Positions 14,609 through 17,158 of a stretch of 64,000 nt of DNA are shown piece by piece. The notes under the pieces are model-generated. The model was not told the origin of the DNA. It was given only the letters and a program-made list of their open reading frames with translations, and did no database searches. Positions within the stretch are counted from its first letter, which is position 1; each line of letters starts with the position of its first letter. This DNA is from Acidimicrobiia bacterium (lineage in GTDB: Bacteria; Actinomycetota; Acidimicrobiia; Acidimicrobiales; AC-14). Made by a program: the position numbers and the translations under genes. The stretch lies in contig JAHFUP010000010.1 of assembly GCA_023265025.1 (NCBI GenBank), positions 1-64,000 on the forward strand, in the 5' to 3' direction.

Positions 14609-15025
14609 GTGTTCAGCAGGCTCAGTCGAGGCGAGCGAATCGTGGTGGTCGCCGGCGGTTTCCTGCTCCTCAGTCTGGCCTTCTTTCCCTGGCACCGCGC
14701 CGTGGTGTCCGGGTTCTTCGGCAGCGGCACCCTCAAGCGCACCGCCCTCCAGAGCCCCAACTCGTTCCAGGGGACGCTGGCGTTCCTGATCACCGTGGCC
14801 ATGGTCGCCCAGGTCGTGATGACCAGGTACACCAACCAGAGGGTCAATCCCGCGCTGGTCCGACTGCAGGCGCCGGCGGGGCTGGCGGTCGTGGGCATCC
14901 TGGCCTGGAAGCTGGCGAGCGAGACCCTGTACCTCTCCGTGGGCGCGTACCTCGGCATGGCCCTCGCCGCCGCGGTGGCCTACGGCGGGCTCATGATGGC
15001 CCGCGAAGGCGGCAGCCGCCGCTAA
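14609..15025 (+). CDS. Small multi-span membrane protein of unknown function
   Basis: A 138-residue protein with about four hydrophobic segments: VVVAGGFLLLSLAFF, GTLAFLITVAMVAQVVM, GLAVVGILAWKLA and YLGMALAAAVAYGGLM. The loop between segments 1 and 2 holds a short SGFFGSGTLKRT stretch. I do not recognise the family by a motif, though similar four-helix proteins are common in Acidimicrobiia. The GTG start at 14609 has an excellent ribosome-binding site (GGAGGGGAG, five bases upstream of the GTG). The end overlaps the convergent DUF3039 gene by four bases. Confidence 0.7.
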   Translation: MFSRLSRGERIVVVAGGFLLLSLAFFPWHRAVVSGFFGSGTLKRTALQSPNSFQGTLAFLITVAMVAQVVMTRYTNQRVNPALVRLQAPAGLAVVGILAWKLASETLYLSVGAYLGMALAAAVAYGGLMMAREGGSRR

Positions 15026-15234
15026 CCGCGGGACCAGGCGGCGGCCAGCTGCTGGCAGACGACGCACACGGGCAGCCTGCTCGGGTCGGCGGGGGGCTGG
15101 AACCGTGTCCCGCACAGCGCCTTGACCGCCCGGCCCTGCGTGCGGGCCGCGTGCAGCTCGTCGTTGCGGGCGTAGTGGGCCAAATCGTCGTCGTCCCCGT
15201 CGTCGACCTGGGGGTCGTCGACGTCTGGCGCGAT
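15022..15234 (-). CDS. DUF3039-like zinc-ribbon protein, start uncertain
   Basis: The reading frame gives an acidic N-terminus (DVDDPQVDDGDDDD), then LAHYARNDELHAARTQGRAV, KALCGTRFQPPADPSRLPVC and VVCQQL. This matches DUF3039 proteins: an acidic leader, HYxRKDxI, CG, then PVCxxC as a likely zinc site. The frame contains no ATG or GTG upstream. The only standard start, a TTG at 15181-15183, would cut off the acidic leader. The coordinates given use an ATC at 15232-15234, just after the DUF4235 stop, as a possible alternative. Function unknown. Confidence 0.6.
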   Translation of the reverse strand: MAPDVDDPQVDDGDDDDLAHYARNDELHAARTQGRAVKALCGTRFQPPADPSRLPVCVVCQQLAAAWSRG

Positions 15235-15238
15235 GTGG

Positions 15239-15526
15239 TCAGGGGGACACCGCCTCCAGCCCGGGCGGGTAGGCGCCGGTCCTCGCCTTCCACGCCTCCG
15301 CCGCCCCCCGCTGCGCCACCAGCCGGGTCACCGCCAAGGCCACGCCGGACGACGCGGCCCAGATCAGGGCCTCGGACCACTTGGTGCCCGGCGCCGCCGG
15401 GTTCGTCGGCGGATCCCCACCTCGGGTCGTGCGCCACGCGGCGCGGAGCAGGGTGCGGGTCGCGGCGCCGGCCGCGGCGCCGCTCAGCGACCCCACCGCC
15501 TTCCAGAGCAGTCGTCGATCGGCCAT
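15239..15526 (-). CDS. DUF4235 membrane protein
   Basis: A 95-residue protein fitting DUF4235: it begins MADRRLLWKAVGSLSGAAAG, has a hydrophobic glycine-rich first helix, the PPTNPAAPGTKWSEALIWAA segment and a second helix VALAVTRLVAQRGAAEAWK. These are small inner-membrane proteins of actinobacteria without a known function. It lies directly upstream of the DUF3039-like gene, four bases apart, suggesting co-transcription. Confidence 0.85.
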   Translation of the reverse strand: MADRRLLWKAVGSLSGAAAGAATRTLLRAAWRTTRGGDPPTNPAAPGTKWSEALIWAASSGVALAVTRLVAQRGAAEAWKARTGAYPPGLEAVSP

Positions 15527-15566
15527 TGGCGTCGATTCTGCCCGAGATCGGCCGGCGCCGAACCGC

Positions 15567-15572
15567 TACCGT
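15567..15572 (+). promoter_or_regulatory. -10 box of a leaderless transcript starting at an ATC
   Basis: TACCGT followed by six bases and an in-frame ATC. The identical hexamer with the same spacing precedes the GTG at 18732, and with seven bases precedes the GTG at 21630. Confidence 0.5.
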
Positions 15573-15578
15573 GGTCGC

Positions 15579-16478
15579 ATCAGGAAGGCGGCGGCGGTCA
15601 TCGCGCTCGGACTACTGGCCGCCCCGGCGTGCGGTGGTGGTGGCGGCGGCTCGTCGTCGGGGCCGCCGGCGCCGGTGCAGACCGGCCAGGTCACCGTCGA
15701 CGGGGTGGCGCGCAACTACCGCCTCTACGTCCCGTCGACCCTCGACCAGACCCGGTCGGCGCCCCTGCTGATGGTCCTCCACGGCGGCGCCAACACCGTC
15801 GACGACGCGGTGAAGACCATGGGCTTCGACCAGGGCACGGCCGGGGAGTACATCGTCGTCTACCCCGAAGGCACCCGCCGGGAGTGGAACGCCGGCGTGT
15901 GCTGCGGCTCGGCGCCGTCCCGCAGCCCCGACGACGTCGGCTTCCTCACCCAGGTCCTCGATCGCGTCGAGGCGGACCACCGGATCGACCCGGCGCGGGT
16001 GTTCGTGGCCGGTGTCTCGAACGGGGCGATGATGGCCTACCGCTTGGCGTGCGAGCGGGCCGATCGGATCACCGCCGTGGCGTCCGTCGCCGGCGCCGTT
16101 GTCACCGCGGAGTGCCGGCCCACCCGGCCGGTGTCGGTCCTGGAGATCCACGGCACCGAGGACCAGCTGGTCCCCTACCTCGGTGGCCAGCCGTCTGCGG
16201 TCGAGGCCCAGGGGGCGCCGCCGTACACCCCCACGGCGGACATGGTCCGGCGGTGGGCCGAAGGCGACCGCTGCCCGGCGCCGCTCCCGGTGGTGACCGT
16301 CGGCCCGATGACGATCGACTCGTGGACGGGTTGCGCCAAGGGGTCGGAGGTCAAGCTGATCACCATCCGGGGCGGCAGCCACGTCTGGTTCGCGTCGGGG
16401 CTCGGCCCGGCCAACGGCGCCACCGACGCCACCGGCCAGATCCTCCGCTTCTTCAGCACCCTCCGCCCGACACCCTGA
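15579..16478 (+). CDS. Secreted esterase-like lipoprotein (PHB depolymerase/feruloyl esterase family)
   Basis: About 299 residues. The N-terminus RKAAAVIALGLLAAPACGGG is a lipoprotein signal with the lipidated Cys in AAPAC, so the protein should sit outside the membrane. The domain is an LpqC/PHB-depolymerase-type alpha/beta hydrolase: LLMVLHGGANTVDD (oxyanion region), the nucleophile elbow GVSNGAMMAY (GxSxG), the acid region IHGTEDQLVPY and a late GGSHVW histidine. No ATG, GTG or TTG lies near the signal peptide. ATC at 15579 fits both the peptide and the -10 spacing. The stop is one base from the convergent pseudogene. Confidence 0.8.
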   Translation: MRKAAAVIALGLLAAPACGGGGGGSSSGPPAPVQTGQVTVDGVARNYRLYVPSTLDQTRSAPLLMVLHGGANTVDDAVKTMGFDQGTAGEYIVVYPEGTRREWNAGVCCGSAPSRSPDDVGFLTQVLDRVEADHRIDPARVFVAGVSNGAMMAYRLACERADRITAVASVAGAVVTAECRPTRPVSVLEIHGTEDQLVPYLGGQPSAVEAQGAPPYTPTADMVRRWAEGDRCPAPLPVVTVGPMTIDSWTGCAKGSEVKLITIRGGSHVWFASGLGPANGATDATGQILRFFSTLRPTP

Positions 16479-16479
16479 G

Positions 16480-17158
16480 TCAGCGCCCCGGGGTGTCCCG
16501 GAGGCGGATCCACCGGTAGCCGGACCCGGCCAGCTCGACGCCCTTGAGCTCAGGGCCGAGGTCGTCGTACCGGCGGTCGGCGAACACCTCGATCGGGTCG
16601 CCCTCGGCGCCCGGCTGCTCGCCCAGGTCGACGGTCCGCCGGCGGTCCGACAGGTTGTGCACGGCCAGCATGACCCCACCCGGCGCTTCGTAGTGGAGGG
16701 CCAGAACCGAGGGCTCCCCCGTGTCGACCGGCGTGCACGTCCCGACACCGAACGCCGGGCATTCGCGCAGCGTCCGCAGCATCCGATCCATCCAACCCAG
16801 CAGCGATGCCGGGTCGCGCCGCTGGGCCTCGACGTTCACCGTCGCGTAGCCGAAACTCGCCGCCCGAGATGATCGGCCGGCACAGGTCCTTCTTCTTCGG
16901 CGTGGTGGAGAAGTCGGCGTTCGGGCGGCCCGACCACTGCATCGGCGTGCGGATGACGTCGCGCTCCTTGAGCGACAGGTCGTCGCCCATGCCGATCTCC
17001 TCGCCGTAGCGCAGGACGGGCGTGCCGGGCAGGGTGAATTGGAGGCTGTAGGCCAGCTCGATCCGCCGGCGGTCGTTGCCCATCATCGGCGCTGGGGCAG
17101 GCGTCGCCACGCGCCATGGCCAGGAACGTTGTACCAGCGCTCGTGCATGGTGGGGTAC
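16480..17158 (-). pseudogene. Frameshifted C-terminal remnant of a trehalose-synthase-like GH13 protein
   Basis: Two frames join into one recognisable protein end. The first reads APMMGNDRRRIELAYSLQFT, LPGTPVLRYGEEIGMGDDLS, then RDVIRTPMQWSGRPNADFST and ISGGEF. A one-base gain near 16855 shifts it into GYATVNVEAQRRDPASLLGW, which runs to RWIRLRDTPGR and a stop at 16480. The second shift, a one-base loss near 17090, separates a short upstream piece (MHERWYNVPGHGAWRRLPQR). The catalytic half of the enzyme is absent. It lies directly downstream of an intact GH13 gene on the same strand. Confidence 0.75.

Follow-up and report, generated by a model that had tools for sequence, protein, structure and literature searches.

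The window, by which we mean the whole stretch of 64,000 nucleotides that was analysed, carries a gene for a presumably exported, esterase-type lipoprotein; the gene is probably read from a leaderless mRNA beginning with AUC, the AUC serving as the start codon and presumably being decoded by the ordinary initiator tRNA (CAU). That the conserved ATC is the start codon is very likely, leaderless initiation is likely as far as the DNA can tell, and regulation by IF3 is speculative. The genus comparison comprised three genomes, G000 (that of the window), G001 and G002. Relatives of the esterase were searched for in 60 related genomes, G000 included, and a match was found in 33 of them.

The ATC codon and its surroundings

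The features around the start of the gene are the following.
15025..15240, minus strand: DUF3039 gene (PF11238 match in L186 as well as in the window; G001 also has this gene close to its esterase)
15239..15526, minus strand: divergent DUF4235 gene (PF14019, 68.7 bits)
15567..15572, plus strand: -10 promoter hexamer TACCGT (TANNNT type), with the same 6-base spacing as in two orthologues
15579..15581, plus strand: ATC, putative start codon and putative transcription start (aligned column ATC in three of three genus genomes, GTG in G005)
15579..16478, plus strand: esterase-type lipoprotein gene, 299 codons and a stop codon (Pfam Esterase_PHB above cut-off; NF050058 154.2 bits against 150)
15579..15632, plus strand: putative signal peptide IRKAAAVIALGLLAAPAC with a lipobox-type cysteine at residue 18 (Cys18 invariant in four aligned sequences)

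An earlier note on this DNA had placed the ATC exactly six bases after TACCGT, and this was confirmed at 15567-15581, where GGTCGC (15573-15578) forms the spacer between the two. It had also remarked that no ATG, GTG or TTG lies near the ATC in frame. The nearest are indeed a GTG 42 codons upstream (codon -42, 15453) and a GTG 32 codons downstream (codon +32, 15675). Further canonical codons in frame were found upstream (TTG at -66, 15381, and GTG at -65 and -50) and downstream (GTG at +42), and the frame ends with the stop codon at 16476-16478. A scan of 15400-15700 with the sigma-70 consensus, which demands a -35 hexamer, revealed no promoter-like site. Folding of the first 45 bases of the RNA gave -12.6 to -16.3 kcal/mol for the genes of the three genomes, and in these folds 6 to 10 bases at the 5' end stay unpaired; these values stand without control folds and no weight is given to them.

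The gene upstream of the esterase differs between the genomes: the window has DUF4235 there, G002 has WhiB and G001 has DUF3039; in the window the DUF4235 gene sits between the DUF3039 gene and the esterase. Compared by eye, the larger gene order round the esterase is similar in all three genomes and includes neighbours that we take to be PurH and succinate-CoA ligase. Just downstream of the esterase, at 16483-17083 on the minus strand, are the remains of a disrupted GH13 (alpha-amylase family) gene, the pieces of which are in different frames. At the corresponding place in G002 a GH13 relative occupies one open frame (L196:9952-11592). The remnant reflects either decay or an assembly error.

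Conservation of the ATC in orthologues

In G002 the orthologue (L005, 69% identity) reads TAGGCT-TCTCGG-ATC and in G001 (L006, 68% identity) it reads TAGCAT-GACGCC-ATC. A three-way alignment of the promoter DNA showed that TA...T and ATC are invariant and that the flanks have diverged. Identity at fourfold sites between the genus pairs amounted to 80/143, 86/136 and 75/150 (50-63%). A single hit of this kind might be coincidental, but TANNNT-N6-ATC at the aligned codon in three of three orthologues is hard to explain in that way. The conservation within the trio reflects shared ancestry, is not fully independent and may rest on one ancestral event. The ATC would be at least as old as the common ancestor of the three genomes, or would have arisen more than once.

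The comparison with relatives had been asked for in the earlier note, where an ATG or GTG at this codon was said to reveal a recent mutation. Both genus relatives have ATC and keep it together with TANNNT at six bases, which argues for a start codon rather than a recent mutation. GTG occupies the column in G005, which belongs to another genus of the same family and the esterase of which is 51-52% identical; its presence there supports the column as a start position. In the more distant relatives L035 and L036 (61-63%) an ATG or TTG was seen by eye farther upstream, behind GGAG/GAGG-like sites. The conservation of an AUN at this column does not extend to the nearest relatives seen from other genera. 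A third esterase copy in G005 (L138, G005:C53:46322-47201) is covered by two separate matches, and its codon aligned with the start is ATC. By eye, this copy has an in-frame GTG 13 codons upstream of its ATC and lacks a -10 box at the six-base distance.

The AUC might be the start codon of an mRNA that has an untranslated leader devoid of a Shine-Dalgarno site. Such a transcript would explain the conserved ATC equally well. Against it, TANNNT stands at exactly 6 bases in all three orthologues, none of which has a second TANNNT in the approximately 60 bases upstream of the ATC. Neither was a Shine-Dalgarno-like tetramer (AGGA, GGAG, GAGG or AAGG) found in the 21 bases upstream of the ATC in any of the three. 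We therefore regard a leader as unlikely, and a leaderless mRNA as the preferred reading.

Translation could also begin elsewhere in the frame. A downstream GTG would yield a shortened or unexported esterase, and such codons are available at +32 and +42 in the window, at +42 in G002 (L005) and at +4 and then +48 in G001 (L006), these being the first downstream canonical codons in each case. However, no position is common to all three; a start at +42 would lose the signal peptide and the cysteine that is kept in four aligned sequences, and a start at +4 in L006 would strip the signal peptide of its positive residues. A downstream start is for these reasons very unlikely. Still less probable is a start at one of the upstream codons of the window (TTG 15381, or GTG at -65, -50 or -42), which would give the protein a longer N-terminus. 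In the window the esterase frame is open upstream as far as 15273, and a stop does not exclude these codons. On the other hand, the -10 boxes of G001 and G002 begin with a TAG that stops the frame at codon -4 before the ATC, which makes upstream starts unusable in both; all four candidate codons of the window lie inside the divergent DUF4235 gene, and an extension of 42-66 residues would stand ahead of the signal peptide. The least credible of all the alternatives is a start at an NTG that lies out of frame, eight bases ahead of the ATC, with a subsequent frameshift: at position -8 the window has GTG and L006 has ATG, but L005 has CTT, and the codon would overlap the -10 box. Initiation at the ATC itself remains the reading followed below.

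Selection on the gene and its product

The earlier note had left room for a gene silenced by the loss of its ATG. This did not withstand the comparison, since the ATC is common to the genomes of three species, all with an intact esterase frame, and dN/dS within the trio was 0.38, 0.41 and 0.29 (0.46 to 0.60 for the trio against G005). Judged by these ratios the esterase is under purifying selection. Loss of the start codon with silencing or decay of the gene, or a codon that is an assembly error, would find a parallel in the adjoining GH13 remnant, as decay or sequence error evidently occurs nearby; in the esterase the residues of catalytic type are kept, and with the shared ATC, the intact frames and the low dN/dS this explanation is scarcely credible, less so than an upstream start. 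It is probable that the ATC start functions and that the gene is not broken.

Read from the ATC, the N-terminus of the protein is IRKAAAVIALGLLAAPACGGG. It looks like a lipoprotein signal peptide; the earlier note, too, had read the gene as an esterase-like lipoprotein with a clear signal peptide. The Pfam families Esterase_PHB, Esterase and Abhydrolase_2 all matched the protein above their cut-offs. S147, D195 and H268 are invariant in the alignment of four sequences and likely form the catalytic triad. The product resembles the group of extracellular short-chain PHA depolymerases type 1 and feruloyl esterases in that its score for NF050058, the NCBIfam family of these depolymerases, is 154.2 bits and just over the cut-off of 150, and in that, among solved structures, the feruloyl esterase 9j07 is closest to it in sequence (E 9.7e-34, with a profile of four sequences). 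It differs from that group in scoring 67.8 bits, under the cut-off of 107.85, for TIGR01840 (PHB depolymerase family esterase).

ATC starts in the genus

The frequency of the arrangement was examined in a sample of 786,559 (G000), 770,503 (G001) and 579,751 (G002) bases, 2,136,813 in total, which covers about 14% of the window's own genome. A simple codon-usage caller yielded 2042 genes, of which the 1944 whose stretch included an upstream stop were counted. TANNNT preceded ATG at spacings of 6, 7 and 8 bases in 62, 49 and 36 cases (147 in total) and GTG in 65, 49 and 27 cases (141 in total). These counts are well above those at other spacings, and no other listed codon peaks in this manner. 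The earlier statement that the esterase has the same spacing as the local leaderless genes therefore stands. For ATC the corresponding counts were 4, 7 and 1 (12 in total), without a peak, as other spacings gave 2 to 12. TANNNT exactly 6 bases before a codon other than NTG was found at 127 of 131,599 positions (0.1%).

ATC as a general leaderless start in the genus was rejected, as TANNNT at spacing 6 occurs at only 4 of 3017 ATC positions. Three of the four hits are the esterases. The fourth, L206:1385 (G002:C183), is in a gene for a B12-binding protein and reads TAGCCT-GGGTGC-ATC with an in-frame stop before it. As a candidate for a second ATC start it proves nothing: a TTG follows two codons later and no match was present in G000 or G001. 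An ATC at spacing 8 in G002 (L197:13803) was likewise set aside; it belongs to a gene that we take to be TsaD-like, the conserved part of which starts about 40 codons later.

Among 333 reciprocal-best orthologue pairs from the three genomes, at least 45% identical, the paired and aligned -10 boxes preceded ATG/ATG in 19 cases, GTG/GTG in 16 and GTG/ATG in 4 (39 RTG pairs), ATC/ATC in 3 and other codons in 15. All three ATC/ATC pairs are this esterase. In ten of the 15 pairs with other codons, both members have a canonical start no more than four codons away; by this rule the G001 esterase also has such a codon nearby, a GTG at +4 from its ATC. The five pairs without such a start are CCA/CCA, GGC/GGC, CCG/CCG, CGT/GCT and CTG/ACG, which we read as promoters with a leader or as chance matches. 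As these five pairs show, a -10 box can be conserved without a canonical start close by. In L266:10651 (G000) and its partner in L238 (G001) a TAACCT box is conserved, and the first canonical start beyond it follows some 37-40 codons later; this may be a promoter whose transcript has a leader. The ATC is an exception kept in one sampled gene and not a rule of the genus; other cases may exist.

infC and the initiator tRNA

AUN starts of infC occur in other bacteria. In all three genus genomes infC reads AAGGAG TGATGCCGC ATA (L165:1240 in G000 and the corresponding places in L164 of G001 and L163 of G002). An in-frame TGA lies three codons before the ATA, the next canonical codon is at +19, and the AAGGAG stands nine bases before the ATA. 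IF3_N and IF3_C both match the G000 protein read from the ATA, IF3_N from residue 11 on. This suggests, from the sequence of infC, that the genus does initiate at AUN.

A pattern search for initiator tRNAs gave 10 matches in the three genomes. ARAGORN called tRNA-Met(CAU), with the anticodon CAT, at L167 and L168 (G000 and G002), presumably of the initiator type by the anticodon-stem criterion used. It called no tRNA at the matches L171 and L173, nor at the CAT locus L172 of G001. Within these 10 matches a special initiator tRNA reading AUC found no support, as ARAGORN called no tRNA at the five with GAT in the loop. The confirmed initiator-type tRNAs carry CAT, and AUC would therefore be read with a mismatch at the third position.

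Comparison with known systems and possible mechanism

In having TANNNT 6 bases before the start (the range there is 6-8) and no Shine-Dalgarno-like tetramer, the esterase is like the leaderless RTG genes of actinobacteria (mycobacteria, Streptomyces). Unlike these, it starts with ATC, not ATG or GTG, in all three genomes. The AUN start of infC serves autoregulation by IF3, and pcnB of E. coli starts with AUU. With infC the esterase shares an AUN that is kept in three of three genus genomes. It differs in that infC has AAGGAG nine bases before its ATA and the esterase has no such site, and its product, unlike those of infC and pcnB, is not a translation or RNA-processing factor. Measured by the infC criterion that no in-frame canonical start be available, the esterase is blocked upstream in G001 and G002 by the TAG at -4 and not in the window (-42 to -66), and downstream canonical codons stand at +4, +42 and +32, respectively. 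Deinococcus deserti reportedly uses non-canonical starts, going by the title of a proteomic study by Baudet from 2010, and by that title alone the likeness to the esterase is that initiation is non-canonical. PMC3160421 describes Deinococcus-Thermus as rich in leaderless genes and the TAnnnT pattern in high-GC groups.

The -10 box of the TANNNT type would place the first transcribed base on the A of the ATC or close to it, and initiation at the AUC would take place with formyl-methionine and at low expression. A leaderless mRNA can bind whole 70S ribosomes, on which the check by IF3 of the third codon position may be weaker, and a mismatched AUC might then be tolerated. Published work touches on these steps. 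IF3 excludes weak third-base pairs in vitro (PMC10158994). In the review PMC9031893, leaderless translation is described as starting mostly by 70S binding and raised IF3 as inhibiting the translation of model leaderless mRNAs, and IF3 is also reported to be necessary for leaderless initiation under some conditions.

The leaderless reporters of M. smegmatis speak against the proposal. According to PMC4633059, ATG or GTG is necessary at the leaderless 5' end; ATG and GTG initiated, CTG and TTG did not, and ATC was the negative control, which counts against a leaderless AUC start. In the presence of a Shine-Dalgarno site the same paper gives a low activity for ATC, over background. The open-licence PMC literature yielded no report of leaderless AUC starts, of bacterial ATC start codons or of Myxococcus IF3/AUC initiation, which does not establish their absence in print.

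The esterase would be made at a low level that may rise when IF3 is in short supply or free 70S ribosomes are plentiful. A wider proposal is that the leaderless AUC has been selected throughout the genus as a regulatory start, alongside the ATA of infC: by escaping the IF3 check on 70S ribosomes it would keep the esterase low and release it upon a drop in IF3 or a build-up of free 70S ribosomes. We put this forward tentatively and consider it rather doubtful.

Gene callers limited to ATG, GTG and TTG would misplace the start of the esterase. Similar genes could be sought by a conserved TANNNT-N6-ATC combined with a blocked upstream frame. If the leaderless AUC start is true, the gene would offer a ready substrate for testing start-codon choice by 70S ribosomes, and the rule for leaderless initiation would have to be widened to take in a natural gene whose leaderless ATC is kept in different species.
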